Assembly: GCF_002443255.2 (NCBI RefSeq)
Contig: NW_019211458.1
Span: 24,932,757-24,996,756, forward strand
Source: Varroa destructor
Lineage: Eukaryota > Arthropoda > Arachnida > Mesostigmata > Varroidae
Direction: 5' to 3'
DNA: 64,000 nt
This document shows positions 27,052 through 48,290 of the stretch, piece after piece; the first letter of the stretch is position 1; each line of letters opens with the position of its first letter. The position numbers were made by a program, and so were the translations under genes. The notes under the pieces were generated by a model that saw only the letters and a program-made list of their open reading frames with translations, was not told the DNA's origin and did not search any database.

Positions 27052-27178
27052 CTATTTGTCCTTCAGTCTGTTCAAGATACAGTCGGAAAGGTCATTAATC
27101 TGATTACCGACGCCAGAGGCGTTCATCATCTGAGTAACCTGTGTTTTGATATCATCCTGAAGTCTTGCGGGATCTTGA
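27052..27178 (-). CDS. Gene A terminal exon
   Basis: It starts after GATTGCAG with two bases completing an Asp codon: DQDPARLQDDIKTQVTQ, then NASGVGNQINDLSDC and ILNRLKDK, TAG. The second conserved Cys is residue 34 of this exon, as in gene B. Confidence 0.75.
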
Positions 27179-28175
27179 TCTGCAATCATATTCATGGACC
27201 GATAAACACACGCAAACGGAAGAGTTAATCTTCCCATATATATTACCAGTACATTATATAATTGCCGCATAGAACTTTTAATAAAGTGGCCTAAAGACCT
27301 CAATGTGGAGCATGGCTGCCTTACGTTCTACATTCAAGATTCAGCTATCTACGAAAGCAAGCCTCCATGACTGTTTATGTTCAGCCAGTAGCTTTACAAC
27401 CAAAGTAGTTATATCTGAGTGATTGAATCTAAACTATTTATCCTTCATTTTTAAACTAATTACCTACTTGGCTGACAACATGGCCCTGATGTTATCGTTT
27501 CTTTGCTGTATTATGTTGTTTCTACTCAGATTCGTTTTTACTTTTCTTCTTAAATTATTTTTTATTATAGAAATCACTTTTATTGAATACTTCTATTTTA
27601 GTTGAGCGTTAATTGTGCGAAATTTCATACTATAAAAATACTGTTATAAATATATAAATATTATATGTTTCACTTTCATAAATTTATTCAAGTGTTCATC
27701 TAAATGCATTGCTAAAATGTGTTTTATCTGTTATTTAGCCTAATTATATACCTGTGTTCGGTATTTTTCCTCGGATGGCTGATTCGAGCTTGTTGACGAC
27801 ATCTTCTTTGATGCCGAGATCCTTAGAGCAGGCCTGCAAAGAAATATTCGGCAGATATGCCTCTCAACGTATGTTCTCTGATCGGTTTCTTGGCAATATA
27901 TGTGATCTGCGCAATTCTTTATAAAAGCATCTTCAGCTATGGTTTCAAATTAAAGCATCTTACGCTAAAAAAAAAAAAAACTACTAAGTACCAACTAGAT
28001 TTCGGTGGGATTTGACAGGTTTCGCATTATCAAACGAGGTTCTGACGTGCGTGTGGTACGTAGGAAGTACGTGAAATAGCTTTATTACCTTCATTGCGTC
28101 CACAGCGGCATCGGCATTGGCTGCCAAGCAGCGCGCGAACGCTACACTAAATACAACCAGAAACGGGATGATCAT
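27052..28175 (-). CDS. Gene A: small secreted two-cysteine protein, 98 residues
   Basis: Three coding exons on the minus strand: 28175-28089 (29 codons, phase 0 out), 27833-27752 (acceptor TTTCTTTGCAG, phase 1 out, donor GTATAT) and 27178-27052 (acceptor GATTGCAG, stop TAG 27054-27052). The product is 98 aa: signal peptide MIIPFLVVFSVAFARCLA, then a polar, probably all-helical mature part with Cys31 (AMKACSKDLG) and Cys90 (LSDCILNRLKDK end). The start ATG lies one base after a good acceptor (GTTTTTCCAG), so a 5' UTR intron is likely, with the first exon near or in the assembly gap. Its layout matches gene B (46401-48290): same length, same Cys positions and the same last phase-1 intron. It is likely exported and disulphide-bonded; function is unknown. 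I do not recognise a named family. Confidence 0.75.
27752..27833 (-). CDS. Gene A coding exon 2
   Basis: 82 bases: ACSKDLGIKEDVVNKLES and AIRGKIPNT plus one base. Acceptor TTCTTTGCAG is strong. It carries the first conserved cysteine. Confidence 0.75.
28089..28175 (-). CDS. Gene A coding exon 1 (signal peptide)
   Basis: ATG at 28175-28173 is followed by a hydrophobic core ending near Ala18-Ala19 and then ANADAAVDAMK, with the exon ending AAG before donor GTAATA. An ORF continuing past the donor is read-through of the intron. Acceptor CCAG directly before the ATG argues for an upstream noncoding exon. Confidence 0.75.
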
Positions 28176-28420
28176 TCTGGAAAAACATTTGAACGTTAAC
28201 AGGAGTAATTATGAAGCTGAACAGTAATTTAATATATATTGAAAACGTTCGCCTTTAGAAGTCCTTTTTTCATATGTCGTGCCTGAGAATGAATAGCCTA
28301 GGTAAGACTACGGTTGGAACAATTAGCCTACTATCTCCAGGCGTTCTCGAAATGGCGTTTAAGAGTCAAATATAATTTTATACAAAGGCTAAAGTCATAA
28401 ATAAAGATAAAATTACATTA

Positions 28421-28520
28421 NNNNNNNNNNNNNNNNNNNNNNNNNNNNNNNNNNNNNNNNNNNNNNNNNNNNNNNNNNNNNNNNNNNNNNNNNNNNNNNN
28501 NNNNNNNNNNNNNNNNNNNN
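28421..28520. other. Assembly gap (100 N)
   Basis: Exactly 100 N, a customary placeholder for a gap of unknown size. It lies 245 bases upstream of the gene A start codon and may remove its promoter or 5' UTR exon. Confidence 0.99.
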
Positions 28521-31500
28521 TTTTCTTGTTTGTTTTTTTAAAGATACGTAGTGTCTCGTGACGTAACCACATCCTTAGGGCAAACTGATCTTCCCCACGA
28601 GATAAACGCTACTGGAATCTATTGCGCCTCCCAACACAGTTGTCGTAAATCTGCTGTCTGAAGAAGGAGACTATACGGCGTAAAGCATAATTTGGAAGCT
28701 AATTAAGGGGAACTGATAATATGAAAGTGGCAGGACAGATCGTTGAAGTTGGTCCGCTTTCAGTGTCAACAACGTCTGCTGATAAATAGAAGAAGAATTA
28801 CCTCATTTCGCTAATAGAAGACCTTCCAACAATATATAATTCTATCTACATTCATATTTGCTGAGAAGCAATGATTTATTCTTCATATCAATATTTTCAT
28901 TTTAACGTCGTACTGAGAAGTCATAGGAACGACCCAACTTGTTTGGGTTTTTGTTACCCTTATCTGTTCTCGCCCTATGTCTGGGGATTAGAAAAATGAC
29001 ATACAAAATGTTTTTTGGTTGTCCGATATTGCAACGGGAAAACTCTACAGCTTTTGTTCTAATCACTGAAATCTTATCGAAGACTTATATGTACGGACTA
29101 AGTCAGAATATGGGAAACTACACGTTTTGAAGATTGAAAATTAGCTTTTTACGTACAAAGGTTATGTTCAGAGTTCTCCTTTTTCTGCAGCTGAGGTACT
29201 TGAACGCAATTATGCGATATTTTAGGTGGCGAGATTTGAAAGTTCAAAACTTAGATATAAATTTGGTAGTGCAGAAACACTCTTACCTGAAGTTTGGCAG
29301 AACTGCGCATACGTCTTATTGACGTATTATCGTGAAGGGAAGGCTTTTATATTTGAAGTCTTATTTATGTGAATAGATTTTGGGGAAATGACTTTTAACG
29401 ATGTCCGGCACGCTATACTGGCGTGCGTCGCGTGTTTAATTGTTTATCGTAAAATTTCAAATTATCCATAGAAACGACACATGTAGTCTCGAGGAAGCTT
29501 CGTTGATTTTCTAGAACCTATTGGAAAGGAGGCATCTTCAATAAACATTATGATTTGCCGAGTAAACTTGGAAATAATACGTCACCTATGAGACATATAT
29601 TAGTTTTCAGGCAGGTTGATTGTTAACTTCCGGCACGCGAGAATGTTCATATGGATTTTGCTGATTTAGGGACCTGTCTTTGGACAGTGAAAATCCATCG
29701 CAATTTATTCCCTTGGCTGGTTCATTGAATCGTGATGCCTGCATCCGACAAGGATTTGCTGGTCGAAATCGCTGCTTACACGGATATTTTACCATCTAGA
29801 TGATAAATTTCTGTATAAGCATCCGCGTCTTGAACGCGACATTGTTCATAAAAAATAACTCAACGCAAGTTTGCACAAAAATAAGTCGTAAATGATCGAA
29901 AACCAGATTTATTACAGAAAAAAAACGTCTACCTGCATAGTAACTAGGCTCGCCTTATGATAATAACCGCAAAACAGCTATTAAAAGCTACGGCAAGGTG
30001 GCTGCCGCGAGGCAATCGGCATGGCGAGAGAACTGGAGTCGCAAGCAAAAGGCCCCGGCTTCAACTACCATAGTTATAAGACCTATAATCGACTACTTAT
30101 TAACTCCAATTGAAGAACGGTAAAATTTTGTAACACGGTATTAAAGGGCAGCTATTGTTTAGCTGGGCAGGTGACAAGTTAGTATAATGAGGATGTAATC
30201 ACGAGCAGAATACATGAACAGGCAACAAATATTTGAAGAGGTTTAATAAAATGATGGCTAGGGTCATTGAAGAAAAGTAAGATCGCAAGAATAAAGCAAC
30301 AAGAAAAACATTGTAATAGGAAATATGAAGGAAAAATGGTTTAGGTACGAAGCCAAAGTGGTTATGAAAGCTAATTGAAATCGATAACAATAGTGAGACC
30401 TAGGAAGTGACGTCTGTACACGGAAAGGATATGTATCTATAAATACATCTAGTCTATTGGGTGATATTAGTCGCTCGGCCTTTCGCAATCTAAAATGCGT
30501 CAAAAGTTAGATAAAATGTCTTGTGAGTGCTACTGTTTTGACATTTCAGCACAAGATTGCGTTTAATTTCCGCAAAAGAAAAAACGCGTCGAGGTCGATC
30601 GAGATCTTAATTTTAAACAAAAAACTGGCAAGAAACTGTTTTTTGAGGTTGGTATCCTTTGACTAATATGGAGTATGTTGACGTTTGCTCACAATTGTCT
30701 CGGAGTGTATTGGAATTTCATTCTGGCTGGATACGATATCTTTTCTCTCATGAATAATCAACGATCTGATCTCCTAAGAAATCTAAGAGTCTATCAATCT
30801 AAGAAATGTTCAACCATTGTATTTATTTTAATCTAACTTGGTAAAGTAACTCCATTTCAGCTATTATCTGAAGATACGATAATCAGGCTACAAACAAAAG
30901 GCTCATTTTTAGGGGAAATAGCAGAGATGTAAATCAGGATCACTACTTGATACTGCTTTAGATCAACAAAAGAAAGGCAATAACACAGGCAAGAACAACA
31001 GCCTTTACGTACGTTCCAAATAGTCATCCTGATTGATTTTGAACCAAATCATACGAGTTAGGAACGCTACGATCAGTGTTATGATGTACTTGGCCTCACT
31101 TTAGTATCGTTGCTCTCAAGCCGAAGGCAGTTTTCGATGAAAACAGCGCAGCGACATACCGCTTGATTTATAAAAAAAAATAGTCGCAATTTTTACAGAG
31201 TTATCTCATGTTGCAAAAATCTAAATAGTGCCTGCCGTCTAAACTGGTACCGTAGTACTAAGAAAAACACTTTGAACCTAATGCTGTGGAATGCCAGTAA
31301 GGTAAAATGGTGGTGATTTTAAGACAACAAGTTTCCGAGCTATGGTCTCCTTGGCTGTGGTACCTTGTAGTAATATCTGCTACGCGGCGATTGATTCTCT
31401 GAACAGAATGTACGGATAACATTATTCAATTTATATAGATTGCATTCAACGTATTTGAAGTAAACATGTTGATCTAGTACCAATGGGTAAGATGGTGATA

Positions 31501-32596
31501 CTTGTAAATTGAGTCTATTACTATATGCTAAATACTCATAATTTTAAGTTCGGAACTTGAGCCGTTAGGCATTATTTGAGATGAGCGGTTAGCTCCTTCA
31601 GAAACGAGGTGTCTGTTTCGAAACTGACCATCTCATGTGACCCTAAACTTAGTAAGCAAATACGTTACAACTCCGCTAAAATTCATGGGGGTCTAAATTC
31701 GATCTATGGAACCGATCCACACACATCAGATTTCGCCACAAGTAACGGATATGCACTGTATAAATCCTCCCCGTTGTGACTCTTTGAAAATAAGTTTTCA
31801 TGACAAATATAACTTTCCCAAAAAAAAGTCGATCTAGCATGACATTTTTCGAAAGTCAGTCGTAATCGACCTTCATCGAAATGTCACGAATCGGGTAGGT
31901 CGCTCGATTATTATACTTAAGGCATGCTTCAACATTTTGCAAGTCCAACAATATTGAAAATAGGTTTTTTTTTCAAATTAATTAATATCATTTAATCCAC
32001 AAAATCTGTACTGAGCAAATCTGTTTTGTCGAGAAAGTTCTAAAGATAATTAAGTCTGCTCAGGTTAATTTTGCCCTAAGTATTTTCCTGAGGGCTTATA
32101 ATTTTATTAGGGTTGCATTTTAAATACTTTCGAATTCATCGTTTAAGATTCACTGCCGATAGGTAATCAGCAGGTTAAATTAGACTATGCTTAATGCCTA
32201 GTTTAGTTTTCGCAAGCGACCATATCAGTTTCCAGTTGTATCTGTGAGTGCAGAATAGAATGACTAAATAGAGCTCATGTATGAATCGGAAAGGGGTAAG
32301 TGAGATAGTCCATTTTGGTTGGTCTCGATGGTATATTCATTTTAGAAATCGAACTGGCCTTCCATCAATAGTGGCAGAGTTCTTGCCTGAAATAGCTACC
32401 AGAAAGAGATATTAACGGGCAGTGGTTGGCTGTCGATGAAATGGAGAGCGTCCTTTTGCAGCGGACCCGCCTAAATATCGAAGTCTATGAGAAAGGATGT
32501 ATCTAAACAGACGTAATGTATAATCATTACGTAAAAGTTTGTAGATCCAACCTGACAGCTGGGTTGACATGAAGCTAACCATAGCATGACAGGAGT

Positions 32597-32821
32597 TAAG
32601 CCCATGAGTTGTTTGTGCTGGACCCTCACCTAATATTAAAAGAAAAGTATAAAGTGACAGGCAGTTGCTGCTGTTTGCGCACCAGTCAGGCTAAATCGGC
32701 CTTGTATTGTGACGATGATCGGTCATGTAGAAACTATAAAATGTGCGCAGACAGCGGCAGATTTAGAACTATTGAAGTATCGTGGATTGCAAAAGCCATT
32801 TTCTCAAAGGACCAACTTTGA
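32597..32821 (+). other. Cysteine-rich open frame, unknown
   Basis: 74 codons are open before TGA at 32819-32821 with no ATG at the start. The middle reads VTGSCCCLRTSQ, then ALYCDDDRSCRNYKMCADSG: six Cys in about 30 residues. This could be an exon of a Cys-knot-type secreted protein or chance; no clear acceptor or donor flanks it. Confidence 0.2.
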
Positions 32822-33072
32822 AAGATGACTTCTGGTGACAATAAAAGTGAAATAACAAACCAGAGCTAAATCGAGCGCTTTACAGATTTACGCATAGGTG
32901 CACGCTGTTTCCCTTCAACAACACGGACTGTTAGATGCGCAGGCACGTTATACTGATATAATAACCTTGTAAGTCGACAGAATGAATATCGTCGGGCCAG
33001 CAAAAGCTTGAGCGGTCGTTACCCATCGCCAAATCAAAGTTGACCCTTCTAGTGTGCTTTATTTACTTATAT

Positions 33073-33107
33073 GTCTATATCTATATATATATATTTATTT
33101 ATTTATA
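33073..33107. repeat. TA/TTTA simple repeat
   Basis: A TA run passes into ATTT/TTTA units. Confidence 0.85.
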
Positions 33108-33310
33108 CTGCCATATCTATTTATTTGTATAAACATGTTCTATATTGCTAATTAAAACTTGGGGTAAAGTTTACTTCTTCAGGACGTTCTTGGGTACATC
33201 CGGGACGTTTGTTTGTTCGGCACTCTAATCAACTCACTCAAAGTAATCAAATAACGCGGATATGAACGACCAAGTCACATATGTATAATTTTTTTAGTTA
33301 TTATTTATCA

Positions 33311-33326
33311 GTTGCCCCGGGGCAAC
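33311..33326. repeat. 16-bp perfect palindrome
   Basis: GTTGCCCCGGGGCAAC equals its own reverse complement. It is a GC-rich island in AT-rich DNA, nine bases before a second palindrome. Confidence 0.95.
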
Positions 33327-33334
33327 CACAGCAG

Positions 33335-33356
33335 CGTTAACATTTTAATGTTAACG
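33335..33356. repeat. 22-bp inverted repeat
   Basis: CGTTAACATT and AATGTTAACG pair perfectly around two T. Confidence 0.95.
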
Positions 33357-36300
33357 AAATCGATTTTAAACCTGAATTAAATACTTCTACAGGTATAGGA
33401 TTTAACTTGACGATGCATTTTGACATAAAGCAAATCAAAATCAGCTAAGAGAAATCAATATAATGCAAGATGGCGCTGGGCAGGCAAATCAAGCCGAAGC
33501 AAACGAATAAATAGGGAGACACATTCGTAAACCAAAATCTATAAATATCACCAATCTGTGCCTACAATAATTAGCTAAAAAAACTTTACGTTCTTAAGAT
33601 TGATTTATTGATACTGTGGCAGGAAGTTAACATCTCATACAAGATAAACTTAAAAATTATATGTGAGACCAATATGTGAGAACTCTGAACCGTCGATGCG
33701 AGGTTCACAAAGTTAAATAGCATATATCAGTGATACTGACCCCGTGGCTGCTTTGTAGCATCAGAACTCCACTCGGTGCTCACTAGTACTAAAAAAATTA
33801 TACATACATACATTTCGTTAAAACTTTTCAGTAGAATAAGACTTCTATAAAATAGTTTCCTCCATGAATCTTTCGGAATTAGTTAAAAAGAAAGTACGCA
33901 TTAGTTATATGTGATATATAGACACCGTTGCGTATCAAGAACCTCTTGTCTTCCATACAAATTTTTCGAAATTACAAGATCCACATCATTCCGTCACACG
34001 TACTAAGAACGTAAGCTGATATGATTTGAACCGTCTTATTTGTAAAAATCTGTAATTTTCTATAAAATGTAATACTAGAACAGCATAATCAAAGGGCAGT
34101 ATATCGTTACGAGTCTTAAGGCTAGAAGCGGGTCAACAATACTATATTCGTTCTGCTGGACTGACAATTGCCCTCTTTCTCCACCGCATCTCTCTGGGAA
34201 GTTCTCAATAGTGCCAAACAAAGACATCAAGAAGTTTTGAGTATTGGTAGTACCTGCATAAATTCTCAGGGCACGTGGTCTCATTAGCTATAGGAAATTC
34301 GAAGCACATTTGGATTACTATGTAAAGCGATTCTTTTCACCGCGTCATTAAGCATGCTAGAATTTTCTTATACTCATAAAGTAAATTTTATTTACTAACT
34401 TTTACATATAATTACGTTTCGATGTTCCATACTGTTCTCCTATAAGGTTGAAACGTATTCCGCATTTAGCTAGAACAAGTATAATAGGCCTTCCTGTAAA
34501 CTCATATGTTTCAATCAATCCAGCTCCTAGTTTTAGAGGCCACAAAAGGCAATGAAGATTTTAAACTTTCACACTTTTAAATACTGCAGCAAAATCTTCG
34601 TGTACTAACTTTAATAATAATTTCTCTGTCGAGCAACGCAGTGGGGGATCAGCTGTTTCGGGGCGCATAACCTGCGTTGTATACAATTATTGATAATTAT
34701 TACTCGTGTACTATAAATTACCTAATAAATAAAGAAAATAAAATCATAAATCCAAATACGTTATAGCATATCGAAACACATTATTATTGGCGAGTGTGTG
34801 GGAAAAATGTTCTTCTTCGTCTAGCTTGTGTTTAACCTTAACGAAATGATCGGCAGCAAAAAATACGCAAGAAAACGAGATAAAGCGTCGTATTTGGTAA
34901 CACTCTTCGTCAAAAAAGGTTTTTACTTAGAGTTAATGTATTTAATGAAGGATCTGTATCACGAACACGCGATCAATAAAAAATAATGGGCTCATCAAAT
35001 AAATTATCATTGCAATATAGCTATTGATTTACGATAGCGATAGGTAATGGCTTATAATTCATAATAGTTTTATCAGTAATTATACTTTGAGCATGTTAAC
35101 TCGTCTCAGTGCTGTGCGCTCAAATTTAATTCACTTTTCTGCTCTTCTAACGGCGTTGTCATGACTAGAAAAACCTTTGCCATTACTTTTAACATTTTAC
35201 ATTTTCCTCTACATTCAATTACCTTTGGAGCAATACAACGAGTGGACTTGTACGTCATAAAAGACAGTTTCCTTTGATAAGCGCGTCTTCGGAAGATTGT
35301 CTGAGTGCGAAAGCTGCCTTCTAACAAGACATTGTAGATACGAGCTAAAGGGTACGTTGAAAACATTCAACTCATTTATTCAAGTCGTGGATGAAAAACT
35401 TCAATTTTTTTGCACCTCTAATCAGGTCTATTCTGGAATTCAATTCGGAGTCCTAGTTGAAAGTAAAGTAGTAATACTTTAGTACTCATAGTAAAACTAA
35501 CAAAGGATTGAGATGAAGTTATGTAAAGGACAATTAGAAATTATGTTCTGCAACTATTATTCATTGGACTACCTGGACATCGTATATAATTAAAATACAT
35601 CGGCAATAACGTTACTCGATATTGAAAGGGAAGGGCAGAATGCTCAGGATTTTGAGGATCCTAAGAAAAGGTAAAGCAAATACCTAAATGGAACGCCGGC
35701 ATTTACTAGATCCTTCATGTAGTTGCAGCCAAACATTTCACACCGGAAGGTAAATTTTTTGAATACGTTGAATTTAATAACTCTTTAATATTAGCAGCTG
35801 CGTTTGTATAGCGTTACTGAACAAGTGTATCTCTCTGAATAGAGATCAAGAAACCGAGCAGTTCCAATTTGTAGCTTTAATCAAATCGCAAAACCTCACC
35901 ATTTACCCTTCAAATAGGTATGAAGTGTACTTAGGACTACGAAAGCACACACTGTGTCTTAGTTTAGTCCATTTCATTTGGGCAAAATAAATTCAGTCGA
36001 TTCACGATCCAATCCGCGCCCTTCAATCTACCTAACACATTGTCGTTCATCTCTAATCGTACACAAATGGCTTTCCATGGACGCTGCTGATAGCGTGGCA
36101 GTTAATACACCTTAGCTATACGTAAGTGCCAGTGTTGCCATTACGATTAGTGTCACCCTAAATTGGTAAATGAAGTTCCGACTGTGCGGAACTTAGTTAA
36201 CCGTACAGCTACCAATATGCTGCGTATCCATTTCGTTCAGGCAAGCGCACTTTTAGATGCACCAATATCCATAAAGTGCCGTATTTATGCTGCTGGAAAA

Positions 36301-37340
36301 AAAGCTTTGCGGGTTAGTTTCTCTGGAAGCTCCTGTCATGTCAAAATTAAGGGAAGTGTGCTCGCAACAAGGAAATATAGAGGCAATGCAAAATTATAAA
36401 CTCATTCTCTGCTTTCTGTACGATTTATGAAGTCTCTAGGGGATCATACTGCCCTGCAAAAAGGGTACCGACTGCGTAACGTACGTGAAAAAAAGAGAAC
36501 AAATGGACGAAATAATGTATCATTAGAAAGGAAACTGAACGAAATCTTGTCCTCATGATATTGGTAATTCTTGAACTCATTTGACATCTCTTTCGGTAGA
36601 TAATATTTTAAGCCATTTAGCGATACCTCACGTTACAGACATAGCACCTGCAGTATCCTCATTGTATTTTACAACATACAAATACAAGCTAAACTACACT
36701 GTGTAATGCAAAATCAATACATTTCTTCGACTTATGACCTGTTTGAACAAGGTAAATGTTCTGTTTGAGTCCTTTACAAAACTGCCGCGTCATCTACAAG
36801 AGTACGTTTTACCATCGTCGCTGAATTCTACTTCGTCGAAGTTATCTGCACAGTTCGTGCTTTATTCATTCGATGCCACTGTCATGAAGCGGCACCTTTC
36901 GTTAAAGCAAACAAGTTTAGGCCATATTCACTTCATTCTAGTTTTAGCTAAAGAGATCTGATCCGATTTTTTTACAAAGCAGGCTTGATCAGCCTTTTAC
37001 AAAGGCTTTGATGTTATCTGATTCACATAGCTCGACCTAGAAACGACACCTAGCTCCGACTTATATGCGATGATAGAGAAAGCTGGTGAACAAGGCAAAG
37101 TTTGTTTTCTAACGCGTGGATGTTTCGATCGTTTCCTAGAACACTAAAAATGCTTTGCAATTAACAGATTGTTGAACATGAAGTAAACTACTCCCTGAAA
37201 AGAAATTAGGAAAGTACGAACTAAGATTTGGTGAGGCGTGTTTGTAATTGACTCAGGCCGCTGTTCGGCTGTACTAGCACAACGATTGGCTAGCCACCAT
37301 TCTGCATTAACTTTGATTACTATTATATCTTAGTTGAATC

Positions 37341-37382
37341 ATTATAGGTTAGGATTATTAGGTATGAATTATAGGTTAGGAT
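37341..37382. repeat. 15-base direct repeat containing TTAGG
   Basis: ATTATAGGTTAGGAT occurs at 37341-37355 and again at 37368-37382. Confidence 0.85.
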
Positions 37383-38300
37383 AACAAGGTGGGGCAAATA
37401 TCTCACGATACCTGTCCAGTTTTCACTAAAAAAAAAACAATATTTATTGAACTCATTTACTTTTTTTTGTCATCCTCAGAACTCATTAAATTTTCAAAAA
37501 CGCTGTTCTTTTTTGATTCGTATCCTTGCAATCATACGTAAGTCCATGGCACAGAAGAACGCATGTAAGGTCAGAGCTTTTCGTTACAACAGTTTGAAGG
37601 AGTTTCACTGAAGTTTTTAATCATAGCTCTCAGTTCAGAAATAAACGAAGAACTCCGAACCATGAACACGAGTTAGAATCAAAGTGCTCGTATATTAGAC
37701 TTCAGCTGGTATTTGGCGACAATAATCGAGCAGTTATCGAATGCCATCTAACTGTGTTGACTACGAATTACCCAGGGAACTGCTATAAACATGGCTAACT
37801 ACGCTCCCCTTAGAAATTATAATAAAAACGGGAATAGATTAGACCGTCTGAAGAATTTTCTCAATCACCAATTCAGCTTCCCCATTCGAAAACGTAGCAA
37901 GTATTTACGTGACATGACGCACGTAATCAGCACCTCGTGATTGACACTCTATAATATCTCGACCGCACTGTTGACTCCGATTTTGTGTAACCTAGGTCAA
38001 CAACATCATGCACGACATCATCACGAACGAAACTCATTGTCGACGTAACCGTTGTGGAAAATACCTCCAAATCACTTCTCGTTATTTTTTTCCACATCGG
38101 CGTTGGCTATTGTTTGTTTGACTTCGTAGAATGAATGACTGGGCGATTAGGGCCTTACGTGCAGGTTTACTAGTCCTAGACAGCCTATACGGTTGGCTAA
38201 TTACGTGTCACAGAAGCATAAGCAAAAATGTCTTGTCATGATTTTATTCATCTAGCAAACAATGCAGTTAGTCATAATGTAAATAAGGCAATTTCATCAG

Positions 38301-39195
38301 TGCGCCGTTGTAATCGTGTCTGGCAACGACGCGAAGCAATGCAAGGAGCTTGAACGTACACTTATAGAATACGTTGAAGAGGAGACCGATGGGTTAAATT
38401 ATGGAAATTACTGTTATCGCTAAGGGCGAGAAGCCTAAGTACGGTGGGCTTAAAGCTAATTGGATTAATGAATCAACGTTTTCTGTTATCTCAGACTGTG
38501 GCGGCGTATAATCCTTTAGTGTCTTGAGACGCTAATAGCAGAGTAACGAAAACGTCAACTTTCATAGTTTCTACGTAGACGTTCAAAGTCGAAGGGAATT
38601 AATAGAATCCTGAACGAAATTTGACTATGACTTCTTCTGTAAGGTTGTTACATTTTTTTTTTTAACGTACGACGATCTTCTGTAGTGCGAATTCTGACCG
38701 GAAGGAAAGCCAAACCGCCATTTTCTAGAAAAGTTTTAACTGTATGTACGAAAGTTGAACAGTTTATTTGCGGCGATTCTAGCGCATATGATCAGTTGAC
38801 ATAGAGACGAAAAAGCAAATTTGTACACCTATCTATAACTGTACACAGTGTCAACTTGTTTTCAATTTGGCATGAATGGGTCATGGTAATTTATTTGCAG
38901 CTTTACTAAATACAATTTCTGTAGGTAAAATTGATAAATTGCAATGTGAACCTACTATACGTATACTTTAGGTTTCGAAAAGAGCGCCTCCAAAGTTCTT
39001 ACCAATTCTGCTAATTTGCTGACAGGCAAAATGGCCAAGGCAGCTGCGCAAGAAGCAAACGAAGAGTGTAAATCTCGGTCCTATTATATTATAAGCAATT
39101 ATAAGAAGCTGACACTTGTGTCCACGGGAAGTTCAGACCTTAATCATTGCTCACCTAAATTGCTAGTTCTGGCCTGCGATACTTGGCCCTTGTAA
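38301..39195 (+). pseudogene. Gene D: aberrant third member of the A/B family
   Basis: The first exon follows ATTTCATCAG and reads CAVVIVSG, then NDAKQCKELERTLIEYVEEE and TDGLNYGNY to a possible donor at 38412/38413 (phase 1, but GTTATC is poor). The last exon (38972-39195) starts phase 1 after ACTTTAG with FEKSASKVLTNSANLLTGK and has its Cys at residue 33, against 34 in A and B. After that Cys it does not stop at eight residues as A and B do, but reads on about 41 residues to TAA at 39193-39195. No start exon is seen: an in-frame ATG at 38262 is followed by TAA after six codons. It may be a decaying copy, or a gene with an unseen first exon and different splicing (an alternative donor GTGTAA at 39066 would join the 39973 exon in phase). 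Confidence 0.45.
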
Positions 39196-39972
39196 AATGA
39201 ATGTGTTCCTATCGCACGCGAATATTCCTCACTTATTGTGTTGAGTCATGATATTTTCTGAGGTAGACATTACTGGGTAAAGTGCCGTTGAAAACAAAGA
39301 TAGTTATAACTTGCTCGCGGCAGCCATTTTTTTAACATTAATACGAAAACGTCCGATTTATTCGAAACGACGCCTGATTCGAGGTCAAAATGTTATCTTC
39401 CATTAGTTTTTTTTTGGTAATTTGGGTTTTTGAACTTTCCCGCTCATCTAACTCATTTAGTGATGTGTACCTTTCATCTGCCAGCTCCAAGTTTATCGCA
39501 TTTTCTCGACAAACAAAGAATGCGTTTTTAACTTTCAGTCACTAGTCTTAAAAAGCTTACTTGAAAGTAGAATGGATGCTTTTATTCTCGATTATTTTAT
39601 ATTTCCTGTCGCGTCATCCTACCATTCCGTCAACAACATCCAAATCCTCTCTCCATCGGGCTGTTAAGTACTAAAAGTGTTCTTCCGTGTTCAATCAGAG
39701 AAAATGGGTATCGTAGGTATCCTCGTTCATTTATTTGTCTCCTTTGCAGATCGTTGAAACCAGTTGAAATTCTTAGAAACGTTAATTACGTCAGACATAA
39801 ATTGCTGTTATATTAAAGTGAAAGACCCGATGTTTGGTAGATATTTGGTATTTTTTTCGATTTATTGTGAATTTGTATTTTTTTTTTTATTGCTAGTGGT
39901 ACAATAATTACACAGTTAAGGGACCAGCTCAAAAGTATTCGAACTGTCGTCCGCTACATATAATGTTTTTAG

Positions 39973-41442
39973 ATTCAAAAATAGCATCGTTTCTACCGTG
40001 AAAGGCTTAAGGGAAATATTCAGATACCAGATGGCGTAAGTATATCTGATAATAATTCTGAGCGCCTCTTGATTGTTAACATCTTAACAATGTTCTATGA
40101 TAGACTTTATTTAAATGCCTCTCACTGTTACTACGTGCTTCATGAGATATAGATGCCAAAGAACAATTAAATTGCAGTGATGTTCTGCGCGAAACTTCGT
40201 TTATCATAAAAACAACCAGATCAAATGGTTAATGTCAGTTTCCTTTAAGTGAATCGTTTCGTTATGTATCTGAAATCTAACAACATATTCAGAACTAGAG
40301 ATAACTGTGTTCAATAGTACCTAGTTCATAACACTTATTCATATATCGCAAGGTGTGGCGAGGATCCTCGATGAATTTTGTCAGCTGCTTTAGATCTCTT
40401 CGTTTGTTAACGGTCGGTATTGATTTAAATTTCTCTTACTAACGGCTGTATTGAAAAATAGTTTCAGACTAGGATTAACAGGGCGCATCAAATCAGCCAC
40501 ACAAACACACAACATAACTTTCACGGACAAACACTACGGAAGCTTTCAATGCAAATTGAAGTTTTAGTGGCAACAATGGAACTGTCTCCATACTCTCGTC
40601 AGAGCTCTGAAGCATCTTCTACTTATGTATGGCAGTTTTTTTCCTACGCATTGCGCAGAGCAACTAACCGAGTACGAGGTGATTTTGTACATGCTGTCTG
40701 ATTACACATACGTTTTCGAAATTATGCTGTCGAATCTCATGGAGGTGTTTGACGTTGAACTATTGAATGTTTTTCTGATCTGAAAAACTGATCTTCAAAC
40801 GCTAGCTTTTTTAGAGAACGTTGTGCTCAAAATGTTAACACGTAGAATTCTGCACCTAAATAAACGTAAAATGCATTAATATTTTCACCTGCTTAAACAG
40901 ACGGCAACACCGCGCGTAGCGATATACGGACGACTGAATCTGTATCGACGTATTTCTACCATTACTGGCACGTGAGATCTATTATTCAAAGTCAGCATAG
41001 ACCGTTTCTATTTGACTAGCTAAAAAGCCGCTCCTCTTTGATGCCAGCGCATTAGGAGAAGCTCACCTGTCAGGAGTTCCATCATTGTGGCTCGTGTTCG
41101 TGATCTACGTGCGGTCCTATTAGAGACTCTGTCAATCCATAAAGTGGACCTAGCTAGTTGAGTATATGATCGCTGAGCTTCAAGGGATCAGACCTTCAAG
41201 GTCCTCACCGCTCAGAATAGAAGAGGCGGCAAAGTTGCTATTTGGGCGTGTCGATTACTTTTAGCTAACAGCGCGATCCTCTGCCAAATTTGAATCTAAT
41301 ATTCGAATACTTTTGTATTTAAATCGATATATCTAGAACAATCTCCGTTCTGGTATCAGTGTGCGTCATTGGATTCGTCGCCGTAGCAAAGCCGGATATC
41401 ACCGAAATAGAAGATGCTGGAAAACGCTACATTAACGGTGAA
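39973..41442 (+). CDS. Gene C: putative secreted protein; intron splits codon 2
   Basis: Exon 39973-40035 has a strong acceptor (TAATGTTTTTAG) and a consensus donor GTAAGT; it ends ATGGC with ATG at 40031-40033. The exon at 41337 follows ATATCTAG and begins A, completing Ala2, then TISVLVSVCVIGFVAVA, a clear signal-peptide core, and KPDITEIEDAGKRYIN. Its end is uncertain: a donor GTGAAG at 41438 (phase 1) could join a small exon at 41601, or the frame runs on to TAA at 41515-41517, giving 61 residues. As an alternative, the 39973 exon is itself coding (FKNSIVSTVKGLREIFRYQM) and belongs to gene D upstream. No family is recognised. Confidence 0.4.
40659..40783 (+). other. Unassigned terminal exon candidate
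   Basis: A strong acceptor (TTTTTTTCCTACGCATTGCGCAG region, AG at 40657-40658) is followed by a phase-1 frame: QLTEYEVILYMLSDYTYVFE, then an acidic/hydrophobic helix-like tail to TGA at 40781-40783. It is 41 codons long and phase 1, as in the last exons of A and B (42 codons), but has no cysteine. Its partner exon was not found. Confidence 0.35.
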
Positions 41443-41517
41443 GGCGACGAAGACGAAAAATTGGTCGGGGCTGTTTTAGACCTCACAAAAAATACTTTAA
41501 TAGAAGTATTTTTCTAA

Positions 41518-41545
41518 TTTAATAGAACTATTTAATAGAACTATT
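41518..41545. repeat. 13-base tandem duplication
   Basis: TTTAATAGAACTA occurs twice in a row, starting one base after the read-through stop codon of gene C. Confidence 0.85.
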
Positions 41546-41600
41546 CTACGGTAAATACTCTAACTTGTTATTTCGATGTGTATTTTCATTTTTGCTCTAG

Positions 41601-41710
41601 ATGGTCAGCTTTCAGGTGGCCTATTTGAACGGATTTTGCGGAAGCCTTTGGTACAGATCAGTGATCCATGTAATCATGATCACAGCGGAATTCTTCTTTC
41701 TATGTGAAAA
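41601..41710 (+). other. Possible last exon of gene C
   Basis: Acceptor TTTTTGCTCTAG is good. Entered in phase 1 it reads DGQLSGGLFERILRKPL and on through SDPCNHDHSG to TGA at 41707-41709. Donor GTACAG after FERILRKPL is also possible. Entered in phase 0 it reads MVSFQVAYLNGFCGSLWYRS instead. The choice cannot be made from sequence. Confidence 0.25.
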
Positions 41711-42216
41711 CCAGACTCCCTCCGAATATATTGCAGTCACTGATCAAGATACGTTTACTCTTCATTATATCTTTGTGTAATTGACAGTCATAATACTGTA
41801 GAATATGGGAAACGATAGTATTGACAGGCGTTCACTAAGCTACATTTGCCCTTTTATCTAATAATGGAAAGCTCCCGTTTTTCACAGAAGCAGCATTTAC
41901 AATCTGTCTATACCATTTAGGAACAAGATGTAAGGTGTATTATTCGTTGGGTGCACGAGTACTTCTTTATTTAGCTTAGTTACTTGCCATGTGAAGATTT
42001 GTTCCTTCATCAAAAGCGAATTTAAATTTAGAAATATATATCAAAACTGAATTAAAGGTTTTAAGGAATATTGAAGGCAGTATGAGTTTCAATATTTAGA
42101 GAGAATTTTCTCATAGGAATAATTGGCTGCTTTTTTGGCCTAGGTAGACTTAACCATTAAATTGTACCTGAGCACGTTTAATAATGTTCGTTTTAATGCT
42201 ATGGAGATTAAATCGC

Positions 42217-42243
42217 TATATATATATATATATATATATATAT
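42217..42243. repeat. (TA)n microsatellite
   Basis: About 27 bases of TA. Confidence 0.95.
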
Positions 42244-42652
42244 CGCAATTTCGAATAGCTCGTTTAAGTAAAGCGCTATCGGTACTGACAACTTATCAAT
42301 CAAATAAAACTTACCCAGATGAGAAGTACAATGCTAAGGGGATCTAAAAAATAAGTAATTGATTTAACGTTGGATTTTTACAGACGAAATGACATTGAAC
42401 GAGAAAAAACTATAGACATTTTGTTAGCGATGAAAGCAAACGTAGAGCTTATATGTACTGTATGAAGCCTTACATGCTTGTTTAAGCTGTATGAGTATTG
42501 GGTCGTCACAGGTAGAAATTATAAGCTTTGCTGACGGTCGAATACAGTGCCTTAATATACAGTGTGTCACTTGGCGTAATAAATACGTAAACCAATATGT
42601 TTAAATACACCACTTTATAACGTCTATCTAAGGTAACTGACTATGACAAATT

Positions 42653-42682
42653 GTGTATATATATGTATATATATATATATAT
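42653..42682. repeat. Interrupted (TA)n microsatellite
   Basis: TA runs with single G interruptions. Confidence 0.9.
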
Positions 42683-43258
42683 CTACGTTAAACAGAATGT
42701 GCGGTAGATACTTCGCAACTAAGCTGATCAAGGGATCGAGGGTTTAGTGGGTGAGAGTCCCACAGTACCGGACAAAGCACAGTCAATGATGTCCGATCTG
42801 CATTATGCATTTGCCCTTAACCTCCAAAAAAAAAGATCGCAACTATGAATCAATAAATAGCTACCAAGACGTATCCAATTTATCATGTTTTTAGGTCTCA
42901 TCTAATCACATTTATATTAGACTCCTTAAAGACCGTATACTTAGAGCGTTGGCTAGAATTCACGGAAGCTTGTCGTACGGTCACTAAGAAAATTAAGGTA
43001 TGAACTGCCTGGGTTAAGAAAACTCAAATGGGATGGGCCTTGGACCTATATAATGAAAAATCCAGGTAGTCCTGGGTCAAGTTCAGTTGTAAGTTTTTAA
43101 ATACGTATCTCGATATATAATGCAGAGTTTCGGAACTTCGCGCTTTCTAACCACCTCAAATGTTCTTTTATTCAATGGTTAAATTATGTGCATAGTACAT
43201 AGCAGGCAATTTTCCCTATCAACTAGAATCTTCGGTTTTAATTTTTATCTTTTTTTAG

Positions 43259-43577
43259 ATAGCGAAGTCAAGAATCTCAAACCTCGGGTTGGGTTTAGGC
43301 CGCTGGTGAGAACTTAGATTCGTGTGGGCTTATGCTCTACTATCGCTGGGTGGAGCCCAAACCCAAAGGCGAATCTAGTGATGAATCAACGTAAAAGGCA
43401 ACCACGGAGCAGACGAAAAAGAAAGCGACAGCTTGAGAAACCACCTGCACTAAATCGGTCTAAGCTTGCTCTTGCCGCCCCCTTTACGTCGGTAATGTTA
43501 CTAATACTTATTATTACTGTTATTAATTTTGGTATAAACATATTCCTTATTTTTATAAACATATTCACCCTAAAATA
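43259..43577 (+). other. Exon-like GC-richer block, frame uncertain
   Basis: ATTTTTATCTTTTTTTAG gives one of the best acceptors in the window, followed by a 47-base piece ending at donor GTGAGA (43306). Frames read SEVKNLKPRVGFRPL or IAKSRISNLGLGLGR. Just downstream, 43332-43388 reads MLYYRWVEPKPKGESSDEST before TAA and the +1 frame stays open to 43578 through a Lys/Arg-rich part. It could be a terminal exon, a pseudogene with frameshifts, or chance. Confidence 0.25.
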
Positions 43578-44322
43578 ATTTTCGAGAGTCAGAAGACACC
43601 TACTCTAGGCTATTGAGGCCGAACAATGGACATTTTACCATGCATATTTATCCCAGGGGTCACGTCTCCTCTTGTTTTGGAGGCTTTGAACACAACTAGC
43701 AGAATCGAACCAGTTTTCTTTAGGATTTATTCAGTCTAATAAAATAATCTGAATCCTTACGATGCTTTTATTAGTTCTTGTGCATGTTATCGCTTTTACA
43801 AAAGCACGGCTGAATAAACTGGGCCGAATCTGAAACTAAAAGATTTGGATGATTTATGCGCTGAAAAGAGACCCGATAGTAAGTCGAATTCTAGAAGAAG
43901 ATTATTGAAATGCGTTAAATGAGATTGGAGTCTCTAGGGAGGTAAATTCCTGTATCGTTGGATGATTCGCTGTTATAATAAATTCACATGAATTTATTTA
44001 ATCTCTTATGACTGACTATTTTAGGGTTTGTTTAAGGTATCAAATGGCACTATTTTAACTAAGTAAAAATAAAACAGCTTAGAACAGAGTGCACCGTATC
44101 ATGTTATATTTCTCACATATCGTATATACGGTCTATATAAGACATACATATATATAACACATGTCATTTAGGTAAATATTACCTCTGGCCTAAGAAGCAG
44201 TTTACCGAAGAGAAACGCAATTTAGTACCCACTCGTCTCCTACGTATAAGATTATATTGACTATTTAACCACTGCGTAAACCTCAGACCTTGAAGTCATG
44301 TCGTTTAAACTATTCATGAACT

Positions 44323-44598
44323 ATCGGCACGCTAAGACAGTATTTCGCCATCGAGCGGCCGCAATTGGCGCCCCCCAAAAACACAAACGCTGAACTAGAA
44401 GCCGCCAGCTGGTGCAAAAGAGACGAACCCGTTAACACGGAGCGTTGGCTTTACTGTGAGAATCTGACGCAACAATTCGCTTGTAGTACTCAGCCTTTCG
44501 AGGAAAGACGGCCCAAAAGAATTTCCGCGGAACTGGACAGATCGAAAAAAAAAGATAAAATAAAGTATACCAACATTTTGTTAATAAAAGCGGAGTAG
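44323..44598 (+). other. Unassigned coding-like block
   Basis: The frame is open from about 44323 to TAG at 44596-44598. It reads APPKNTNAELEAASWCKRDE, PVNTERWLYCENLTQQF and RRPKRISAELDRSKKK. GC is clearly above the surroundings. A donor GTGAGA at 44456 would leave phase 1 and could join a phase-1 piece at 44957 (GRHNLASRRFDSDDENLHSS), but the minus strand of 44957-45030 also reads well (APGRCYEDFHRRCQNGDWPD). No family is recognised. Confidence 0.25.
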
Positions 44599-45852
44599 AA
44601 CACAGAGGACAAGATTCATTATCTTCTAGAGTACCACGTAGCACAAGTAATACATAGAGTCTGTTTCAAACAGAACAGGTACAAGTATTAAATCACAATA
44701 GAAATAGGAAGTATCTTATTTTCCCAATTGATGTGTAAAAACAATTTTTTTTTTGCAATTTACATGTAGACGATGGAGTATGGCGGTCTATGTAAGTATA
44801 AATACGTATATTCGATCTATTTAAGCCAGATGTTTAATCTAGAACACGCAGCATCGCTTAGCAGCAACATTTGTCGTACCATGTTAGACGTGTAAACATA
44901 AAACCCAATTTAGTGAGTTTAAGGATAAAACTTGTGCTGTATCAAATGTATTTTAAGGTAGACATAATCTGGCCAGTCGCCGTTTTGACAGCGACGATGA
45001 AAATCTTCATAGCAGCGCCCCGGGGCTACCTGAGCTAAATATTAGCCGCACCTAATATATCACGGCACAAAAGTCATTTACGCCAAATTGCGAAAAGTTT
45101 ACAGAACAGCATTAGCAATAGAGCACTTGCATTCGAAGTATGACTATTTTCGTATGAAACAAACAGCTTGATAATCGACGCAAGACCGCTCAACGAAAAA
45201 CTCTAAATAAGGAACCAGATCGTCACATACAACATAAAAAGCATTGCAAAAAGGTCAAAGCTCTATTCAACAACGCACTGAAATCGCAATAGTAAAAAAA
45301 AAAATACAGTAACCTATATTCGGTAAGCACGGAAAAAGTTTGAATAGAAGAGAGAAGCTAGCTAAGACGATTAAGAACAGAATAGAGGCGAGGGATGTTC
45401 TGGATGCCCAGATATACGACGTTGTAAAATGGACGGACTGTGGCGTATTCCACTAGGTCGCGACAATTACAGAAGTAAATCGCTTAACGCGACTGAACGG
45501 CGTTTATGACCGTGTGTACTTATGGATGGGTCCGGAATTTAAGACGTAAACGACTTCGAATCAAAACCAATGCTGGACTATAAAAGATAAGTTTAATAGA
45601 CAACACCTCAGTGAACCCTACAGGTGTGGCTGGCACTGAAGATTTAGGGTTCACCTTACTTCAAAATGTACATTTGCGCTGTATTCGAGCTACGCTTATA
45701 CATGGTAGTGAACGACAAAATCCAATCAAATTAACTTTTAATAAATTAGGGTGACATGAGATCAGACAGATTATAGCCATTTGAAAGCGCTCTGGTCCTT
45801 GCCACGGAAATGAGATGTGTTCACTGAGGCTGGCTAGCGATTCAACGATTAC

Positions 45853-46005
45853 TGTAGCCGGTGAAGGGCTGCTCTGAGAATGCGGTAACCAGTTTGTTCT
45901 TATCAAATCGTCTATGTAACTTTCGTCATATCTCCTAATAGGTCTCTCGGCGTATTCCAACCGTCTTAAAGGGCGTACTTTTTCATCATATTTAATAGTT
46001 TTCAG
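45853..46005 (-). other. Unassigned exon, 51 codons, minus strand
   Basis: It lies between acceptor CATCCATATAG and donor GTAATC, exactly 51 codons, phase 0 at both ends. It reads LKTIKYDEKVRPLRRLEYAE, RPIRRYDESYIDDLIRTN and WLPHSQSSPSPAT. Repeated YDE and RR motifs and a Ser/Pro tail give strong coding character. The frame continues past the donor to 45661. Neighbouring exons were not found, and the acceptor lacks a good pyrimidine tract. Confidence 0.4.
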
Positions 46006-46327
46006 CTATATGGATGGCTCAAGAAGAATAGTTAAATTTAGTTCTTCGATTTCCTAGTTAAACCAAGTACTGGTCTGCCTTCCCGCTATCTCATAACTCA
46101 AGTTTAAGGGGTGACCATGGGTACGTTTTTCCTTCAAGCTAACGAGACCTCGATTCGTATCATCACTGTGATCCTATCGACAAAGCTGTCAAACAACATA
46201 TCTCGCCTTGAACAGACATAGTTGAAACACTAACATTTTAGACCTGCTACTGGTTAATCATAGGTGATCAGGAAATTTACTATCGAATGTAGGCGTGCAA
46301 AGTGTCATTAGCAGGTTTATGGATAGC

Positions 46328-46338
46328 TATTTAAAAAG
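46328..46338 (+). promoter_or_regulatory. TATA box of gene B
   Basis: TATTTAAAAAG lies 73 bases before the gene B start codon. A start site about 30 bases downstream (around 46358) would leave a 5' UTR of roughly 40 bases, common for small secreted arthropod genes. Confidence 0.5.
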
Positions 46339-46400
46339 CCACTCGTCAAAATTCTCGACAGACATAGATCGACGTCCATCTAACATTCGCTGCACTAATC

Positions 46401-46572
46401 ATGTTTAAAGTATTTCCTCTTTTGTTGGCCTTTACGGCCGTCATCATGACGGTTACGTCCGCGTCAGATTTTATGAAGTCGTTTGACGACTGTACACAGT
46501 CGGTCGATATTATGGATAAAAAGGTTAAGGATCAGATTTTAGAGGTCATTCAAAAATATCGCAGTGGTACAG
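46401..46572 (+). CDS. Gene B exon 1
   Basis: ATG 46401 starts the signal peptide; the exon ends YRSGT plus one base before GTAAGC. It carries Cys31 in SFDDCTQSVD. The frame reading on past the donor (to 46703) turns AT-rich and is intron. Confidence 0.82.
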
Positions 46573-48290
46573 GTAAGCGCAGAATATTCTTTCTTCCTTT
46601 CGTTGCTTCCTCGGTGCGAAATACCTTAGTTACTGAATTTTTTTACAGAAATTTATTTTTCACAATTAATGGAATTTCAATTCAAATTTTTGAAAATCCG
46701 TAACTAACACTATAAATATAAGATTTGATCACTGCATATAGACGCGTTTTAACCTAATTGAACCATTTACTGTTCATGTAAACTATTGACAAATGCTTTT
46801 TTTTTTTTGTTTTTGAGACTATATCTATATCTAAGGCTATATGTGGAGTCAATGAATTTTTTGCGCCTACTGAAAATGTAATATGTGACAGTCATGATCG
46901 TTCGATATATTCCGCTGTTGGGACCTAAACAATTCACTCGTCATTTTTTTTTTAAATTTTCTTTAATCTATAAATTACTTTTACAGTGTACCAAGCATCA
47001 CTCGAACAGGCTATATAAAAAATGTTCCAGCGAAGTTAACTTTAGGCTGAGTCAAAGCTGCTAGAAGGCGTAGAAAATCGCAAAATAACAAACCGCTTGA
47101 GCTAATCTGCATGACTCAATTGGCAATTGATACTCTCTCCTCCAAGACGACCGTTAGTTTTTGCAGATCAGTTCCGTATTTCAATATCCAGATGTACAAA
47201 AAATGTATTTTTGAGCCTCTTTGATGATTTTCTTTGAACTCTTCAAATCTTAACCCCATTACTTCTATCTCGGTTTGCCCTATAGAAATCTTTAGCATTT
47301 TTTAGAAGGCGCATAAAAACTCATATTAAAGTATACCGTCGACTCCGAGCGAAAAAATTTAAATATCATTGACACTTCGCCCAACGCAAAAAGATTCGAC
47401 AGCCAATCTTTGTCAAAATTTCGAGAGTGACGCACTTTTCTTTCTCTATCACGGGTTTGTTGCTTTGTTAAAAAAAAAACGAAGTTTTTGTCTGCACGAG
47501 CGGGAATAGCGGATGAACGCATGCCCGTTACGATAAGTAGCTTGCTCAAGCTTGCATTAGAGGCCGTACCCCATATCTACCGTCAAAGTACCTTAAGTAA
47601 TGTTTTTGCGGCTTACAAACTGATCGCTGTAACTTCCTTGTAAAATAAACGGAACTTAAGGCAAATCTTTATCGAGATCTAGTTGGCATGTGGTAGGACT
47701 AGAATGATCTTAAGCACTGTTTGAGAAGGACAAGGTGGTCAATAAAAAATGAACATTTCTGGTGATAAAGCGTAAATGAAATTGTTGAATGGATGAGAAA
47801 GTCGTGGAAAGTGACAGTGAATACACAACAGATGAATTAATTGTTGAAGTTCGAGTAAAACGGCGCACTATTTTTTTTAGGCGGAACAAACAGTATCGTT
47901 TATTTACTAGCATAATAACCACGAAACGCTTTAATGCCAGCCCAGAAATATTCTATTCAGATAGTTTCTGCTTGCGCTGTTATTTTTCTACTGAATATAC
48001 CGAATCAGGTCAGATTTACGCGTCAGAAACTCATTACCAGATCAAAATTAAGTCGTCTTATTTAATATTCAGTTAATAGTCAACTTTGAATAGAAAAACT
48101 ACATAAACAAAGGGCGATCTAGTCTAAACTTTCTATCCGTAACACTCCCGCTACCTTTACAGAAAAATTGACTTCCGGCATGGTGGCGTCCATCGAAAAG
48201 GATGTACAAGCGGAGTTCGTAAAATTTAATCTGGGAGACAAGTTTAATGGATTCAAGATGTGCATGAAATCGAAAATGGACCTGAAATAG
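46401..48290 (+). CDS. Gene B: small secreted two-cysteine protein, 99 residues
   Basis: Exon 1 is 46401-46572 (57 codons plus one base; donor GTAAGC) and exon 2 is 48163-48290 (acceptor CTACCTTTACAG; TAG 48288-48290), joining in phase 1. The signal peptide is MFKVFPLLLAFTAVIMTVTS; the mature part starts near ASDFMKSFDDC. Cys31 and Cys91 are the only cysteines, followed by eight residues (MKSKMDLK). The whole mature chain is charged and helix-like without Pro. It is the + strand relative of gene A, 18 kb away, lacking A's first coding intron. A TATA box precedes it. Predicted secreted with one disulphide, within or between chains. Function unknown; the two-Cys helical design does not match the four- or six-Cys odorant-binding patterns. 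Confidence 0.8.
47116..47298 (-). other. 60-codon antisense open frame in the gene B intron
   Basis: It has a true ATG and a charged product (MLKISIGQTEIEVMGLRFEE start, VVLEERVSIAN end). No family, no neighbouring exon and no promoter was recognised. Probably chance. Confidence 0.15.
47789..48076 (+). other. 95-codon open frame in the gene B intron
   Basis: It opens with a true ATG and reads MDEKVVESDSEYTTDELIVE, then VRVKRRTIFFRRN and a less convincing tail to TAA. A donor GTAAAA follows VEVR. It could be a nested or alternative exon; the acidic start looks coding, the rest looks like AT-rich chance sequence. Confidence 0.25.
48163..48290 (+). CDS. Gene B exon 2 (terminal)
   Basis: Two bases complete a Glu codon, then KLTSGMVASIEKDVQAEF, VKFNLGDKFNGFKMC and MKSKMDLK, TAG. 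The Cys is residue 34 of the exon, identical to gene A. Confidence 0.82.

Follow-up and report, generated by a model that had tools for sequence, protein, structure and literature searches.

Two short genes in this stretch of Varroa destructor DNA, here called A and B, raise the question whether a common exon layout can reveal descent from one gene where the encoded proteins hardly resemble each other. We addressed this question for the window, i.e. the whole stretch of 64,000 nucleotides that was analysed, for the 314 kb around it (39.9% G+C) and for the complete genome assembly. The genes are arranged head to head, with A on the minus and B on the plus strand and the two start codons 18,225 bases apart. 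Their exons, together with a further coding segment between them, are located as follows:

28089..28175, minus strand: exon 1 of gene A; start codon and signal-peptide-like leader, 29 codons, phase-0 donor after codon 29
27752..27833, minus strand: exon 2 of gene A; 27 codons and one base, with Cys31 and a phase-1 donor
27052..27179, minus strand: exon 3 of gene A; 128 bases, 42 codons and the stop, with Cys90 and a predicted helical hairpin
46401..46572, plus strand: exon 1 of gene B; start codon, signal-peptide-like leader and Cys31, 57 codons and one base, phase-1 donor
48163..48290, plus strand: exon 2 of gene B; 128 bases, 42 codons and the stop, with Cys91 and a predicted helical hairpin
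41338..41514, plus strand: a further coding segment with secreted-like features, located between the two genes; its start is hydrophobic and its body acidic

Direct re-reading of the sequence, with the exon boundaries determined by script, confirmed what an earlier note on this DNA had given as the basic dimensions of the products: 98 residues for A and 99 for B, Cys31 in both, and a second cysteine at position 90 (A) or 91 (B). Protein A contains an additional cysteine, Cys16, which lies inside the hydrophobic leader. The exons of gene A are separated by introns of 255 and 572 bases with GT-AG splice sites. The acceptor of the last exon obtained a poor score of -1.5, on a scale whose weights were approximate values. 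All three exons are identical to the protein database entry P0001, the 98 residues of which correspond to the full spliced model. This entry originates from a 1,396-base contig labelled ‘lgn’, which we take to stand for the Logan assemblies of public reads. When the genome was searched with protein A (E <= 1e-3), only the three separate exons of A were returned. Since an unspliced genomic contig cannot yield P0001 and the genome holds only the separate exons, the contig is most likely an mRNA or cDNA. The splicing model of gene A is thus right with good support. With an assumed cleavage site the mature protein is acidic (pI 4.88).

For gene B the spliced protein has no match in the protein database; the sole protein found there is an open reading frame (ORF) that reads on into the intron. 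The gene model was judged from the ranking of its parts, that of the acceptor being made without reference to A. Exon 1 is one of two ORFs of the window in which a hydrophobic leader is followed, within the range searched, by a phase-1 donor. At a slightly looser leader cut-off it is third by composition among 12 candidates in the 314 kb. The intron of 1,590 bases has GT-AG splice sites. Among the 329 AG sites in the roughly 6 kb that follow the donor, its acceptor ranked third by acceptor score alone. Once coding-like composition was added it ranked first, being one of two sites with a score above 4 and at least 15 codons, and it was also first in a looser ranking over 8 kb (acceptor score above 0, at least 12 codons). 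Mature B is near-neutral to slightly basic, with a pI of 7.68 for an assumed cleavage site.

The two genes agree most closely in their last exon. If the split codon is counted as the first, this exon has 42 codons and the stop in both cases, and the cysteine is codon 34, followed by eight residues. The spacing of 34 codons and eight residues, which the earlier note had put forward, is thus exact in A and B. The phase-1 intron in front of this exon had been placed at the same position in both genes. Its phase and the exon that follows are indeed shared, while its distance from Cys31 differs slightly, with 26 residues in A and 27 in B. Gene A carries in addition the phase-0 intron after codon 29, which has no counterpart in B. 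Not counting the leaders, each protein has two cysteines at a spacing of 59-60. Both leaders, previously described as signal peptides, are signal-peptide-like as judged by hydropathy alone.

How often such a last exon arises by chance was estimated from the surrounding DNA. Within the window, a terminal ORF of 30-55 codons begins at 912 phase-1 AG sites. Of these sites, 36 have a cysteine nine residues before the stop, and in four, which include A and B, the 34/8 pattern is exact. In the 314 kb the pattern was found at 11 of 5,134 such sites, such that a random second exon would fit the pattern of A about two times in a thousand. Ranking these 11 sites by acceptor and composition placed B first and A second, the rank of A being due to composition. 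Only A and B scored positively for composition and had just one cysteine, whereas the other nine had composition scores of -1.8 or lower and two or more cysteines. The agreement between the last exons is more than chance, in line with the earlier expectation that it would be hard to obtain by accident.

At the level of residues the two proteins hardly match, also as previously stated. BLASTP provided nothing useful (E 21), and when the last exons were anchored at their cysteine only 6 of 42 residues were identical. The substitution score of these anchored exons exceeded that of shuffled sequences with P 0.003 (cysteine left out), while identities alone gave P 0.11. Of the window's 42-mers without a stop, 313 have a cysteine at position 34; among these, the A-B score was reached by A and B themselves only. 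For the stretch from Cys31 to the intron the shuffle test resulted in P 0.056, and a free local alignment of mature A and B in P 0.032. Starting at residue 22, the hydropathy of the two proteins was correlated (r 0.40; P 0.0002 by shuffling). This correlation is not to be trusted, since within the last exon a slip by four residues scored practically the same (0.363 vs 0.356), a result that two amphipathic helices of any kind could give. MAFFT paired both cysteines of A and B unprompted, with gaps elsewhere, whereas on the last exons alone it favoured compensating gaps of four residues. Taken over these sequence comparisons, the residue-level evidence for kinship is weak.

Relatives of A and B were sought in protein, domain and structure collections. 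Neither protein had a family match in Pfam, NCBIfam or PDB; the Pfam search extended up to E 10, and its filters remove the majority of weak matches. No relative of either was found among 5.8 billion proteins by a search that depends on exact word matches and would miss very diverged relatives. The word overlap with this database was sufficient for three candidates in the case of A and for one in that of B; of these, only P0001 and ORFs of the window's exons reached E <= 1. This is consistent with the claim that the proteins fit neither the odorant-binding nor other described secreted families, none of which matched in the libraries searched. Proteins like A or B were also not described in the best-ranked open-access titles and abstract openings on secreted, salivary, chemosensory and secretoglobin proteins of mites and ticks.

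A search for further members gave no third gene. In the 366,193,577 bases (112 contigs) of the genome, A matched only itself at E <= 1e-3, and B at E <= 10 matched itself and one chance-like locus. The latter, on contig C2 (E 0.36, one stop), was judged to be a chance match after viewing the three forward frames of the locus. Local profile scans and pattern scans for first and last exons, carried out in the window and the 314 kb, provided no third member either. Left of the window, at a distance of 23 kb, a sequence resembling a first exon joins a 257-residue ORF that is unlike A or B; by eye this ORF resembled a TGF-beta ligand, but Pfam returned no match for it. At the reach of the searches used, A and B thus appear to be orphans.

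The remaining content of the window was inspected as well. The segment between the two genes has the top coding-like composition score in the window, and its sole cysteine is inside the hydrophobic stretch. It has no similarity to A or B, and a genome search with it (E <= 10) returned itself only. Scans of the window for tRNA genes and Rfam families found none. Repeats of at least 25 bases between 26.5 and 48.9 kb are mostly AT-rich, and none joins A and B.

The structure prediction that had been suggested for both proteins supports a helical hairpin encoded by each last exon; the model of A is of middling confidence and that of B covers the last exon only. AlphaFold2 applied to P0001 as a single sequence (mean pLDDT 68.1, pTM 0.54) predicted helices at residues 21-35, 39-52, 60-78 and 81-97 in addition to a leader helix at 11-19. 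Of the four predicted helices that follow the leader, the first contains Cys31 and the last contains Cys90. For the last exon of B, with the exon of A as the sole other alignment row, helices were predicted at exon positions 4-20 and 24-40 (mean pLDDT 89.9). In the same count the hairpin of A extends over 3-21 and 24-40, i.e. over nearly the same places. Helix-moment tests gave P < 0.05 for three of the four segments of A and for one of the four of B. Neither Foldseek nor VIA-align provided a trustworthy fold match.

The best explanation, which we consider moderately probable, is that A and B arose long ago as paralogues, have diverged strongly and encode secreted four-helix binding proteins with a disulfide between helix 1 and helix 4. 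Both genes would descend from one duplicated gene. Removal of the leader would release a chain of about 80 residues that may fold as a four-helix bundle, with helices 1 and 2 formed by the first part and helices 3 and 4 by the hairpin of the last exon. A disulfide between the cysteines of helix 1 and helix 4 could then hold the first and the last helix together. Each protein would most likely act outside the cell as a binding protein, with another protein or a small hydrophobic molecule as its ligand, and the difference in pI between acidic A and slightly basic B would suit different partners. Kinship is favoured by the same length, phase and cysteine position of the last exon, by the same positions of the hairpins and by the neighbourhood on the chromosome. 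It is weakened by the BLASTP result, the P value of 0.11 for identities, the extra intron of A and the lack of a third member. These latter points would all be expected if A and B were unrelated orphan secreted proteins whose layouts are alike by coincidence, as short helical proteins with one disulfide may evolve easily. Such a coincidence is rather unlikely given that the pattern occurs at only 11 of 5,134 sites, nine of them not coding-like, and that the acceptor of B was picked independently of A, next to the agreement in hairpin positions and chromosomal location. A and B thus probably constitute one family, where ‘family’ denotes two members. Of the fast-evolving secreted family that the earlier note had proposed, a secreted-looking, helical two-cysteine pair with a common last-exon anatomy stands, whereas the sequence evidence for kinship is weak and the membership limited to these two. 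Both probably evolve fast; a role in saliva, haemolymph or chemosensation is a guess.

Other explanations concern the kind of protein that A and B represent. Secretoglobins of the uteroglobin type, known from vertebrates, have about 70-80 mature residues, four helices and a cysteine near each end. A likeness of A and B to these antiparallel dimers, in which cysteines at the N- and C-terminus link the subunits and a hydrophobic cavity is enclosed, would account for the four predicted helices, the cysteines in the first and last of them and the length of about 80 residues (modelled for A, and for B in the last exon only). We consider it improbable, as Pfam gave no match to the family and neither of the two Foldseek rows was a secretoglobin, although both are weak tests for single diverged sequences. 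More speculative still, and very improbable in our estimate, is that a lineage-restricted arthropod family has reinvented the secretoglobin plan, in which case acidic A (pI 4.9) and B (pI 7.7) would assemble into antiparallel four-helix (hetero)dimers, linked through the cysteines of the first and last helices, around a lipid cavity, and their sequences would change so quickly that descent is visible in the gene architecture only. Equally improbable appear reduced odorant-binding-like carriers of chelicerates that have kept only the first-to-last (C1-C6) disulfide. Chelicerate odorant-binding proteins (OBPs) are helical and their C1-C6 pair joins the chain ends, according to the excerpts of PMC8222343 and PMC8269058. 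In VdesOBP1 this pair is formed by residues 21 and 141 (PMC8222343), compared to a spacing of 59-60 in A and B. The OBPs of Pfam and PDB gave no match to A or B, though such families can lie beyond these searches. Unlikely, though less so than these carriers, is that A and B are saliva proteins that diverge in the parasite under pressure from its host. Both are secreted-looking, diverged orphans, and the Varroa saliva protein VTP is described in the excerpt of PMC5821841 as likewise secreted, helical and free of known domains; with 135 residues VTP is longer than A and B, a comparison made by description only.

If A and B are the paralogues that we favour, exon phase and cysteine spacing recovered a kinship that was unseen by BLASTP and by a protein search of the whole genome, and the same kind of search by gene structure could bring further orphans together. 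In arthropods, secreted orphans are numerous and, as nothing links them, mostly handled singly. The pair may be a case where gene architecture outlasts sequence, and both proteins would be specific candidates for studies of saliva, haemolymph or chemosensation.

Among known systems, secretoglobins would resemble A and B in the four-helix, two-cysteine plan, which is predicted for A and, as far as the last exon goes, for B; a dimer of A or B is putative. Chelicerate OBPs, by the excerpts of PMC8222343 and PMC8269058, possess six conserved cysteines that are paired C1-C6, C2-C3 and C4-C5. They share with A and B a mainly helical structure and a disulfide that joins the chain ends (PMC8222343, in excerpt); in A and B the helices are predicted and the disulfide is presumed. 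VdesOBP1 (PDB 7NYJ/7NZA) has 147 residues and six cysteines in three bridges according to the same excerpt of PMC8222343, as opposed to about 80 mature residues (98/99 with leader) and two cysteines in A and B. Being short and having two cysteines, A and B are not chelicerate OBPs by the definition that these excerpts provide. Candidate carrier proteins (CCP) are another chelicerate family, named as such in an excerpt of PMC8693713. The Varroa toxic protein VTP has four to six predicted helices as described in the excerpt of PMC5821841. Set beside A and B by this description, it shares the secreted, helical and domainless character predicted for them and is longer; VTP itself stems from saliva.

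A 5' UTR exon may lie upstream of A, the minus-strand gene for a 98-residue secreted-like two-cysteine protein, since a polypyrimidine tract with CAG at its end stops 1 base short of the start codon. Such an exon would be in keeping with the length of a 1,396-base database contig, probably derived from mRNA, whose protein is identical to that of spliced A. The features around A and its putative diverged paralogue B (plus strand) are:

14100-15660, plus strand: exons with an SH2 domain match
28177-28185, minus strand: polypyrimidine tract with CAG at its end, 1 base before the start codon of A
28421-28520: assembly gap of exactly 100 N, 245 bases upstream of the start codon of A
38972-39078, plus strand: short, alanine-rich, helix-like stop-free stretch, preceded by a plausible acceptor
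41338-41514, plus strand: segment between A and B of strongly coding-like composition
outside the window, some 23 kb beyond its left end (from about 6656 in the numbering of that outside stretch, L019): 257-residue ORF of two joined exons

Codon 33 of the alanine-rich stretch is Cys, and no similarity was found between this stretch and the rest of the window. The segment between A and B encodes an acidic body after a hydrophobic leader, and its open frame lacks an in-frame ATG. A genome search with this segment gave no match beyond itself; its sole protein database match was this same ORF from genomic DNA.

The 257-residue ORF outside the window also carries a leader. It gave no match in a Pfam search; judged by eye, its C-terminal part resembles a TGF-beta ligand. 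The SH2-containing exons belong to a conserved gene left of A and gave a PTB match as well, but below the cut-off, a combination of domains known from tensin genes.
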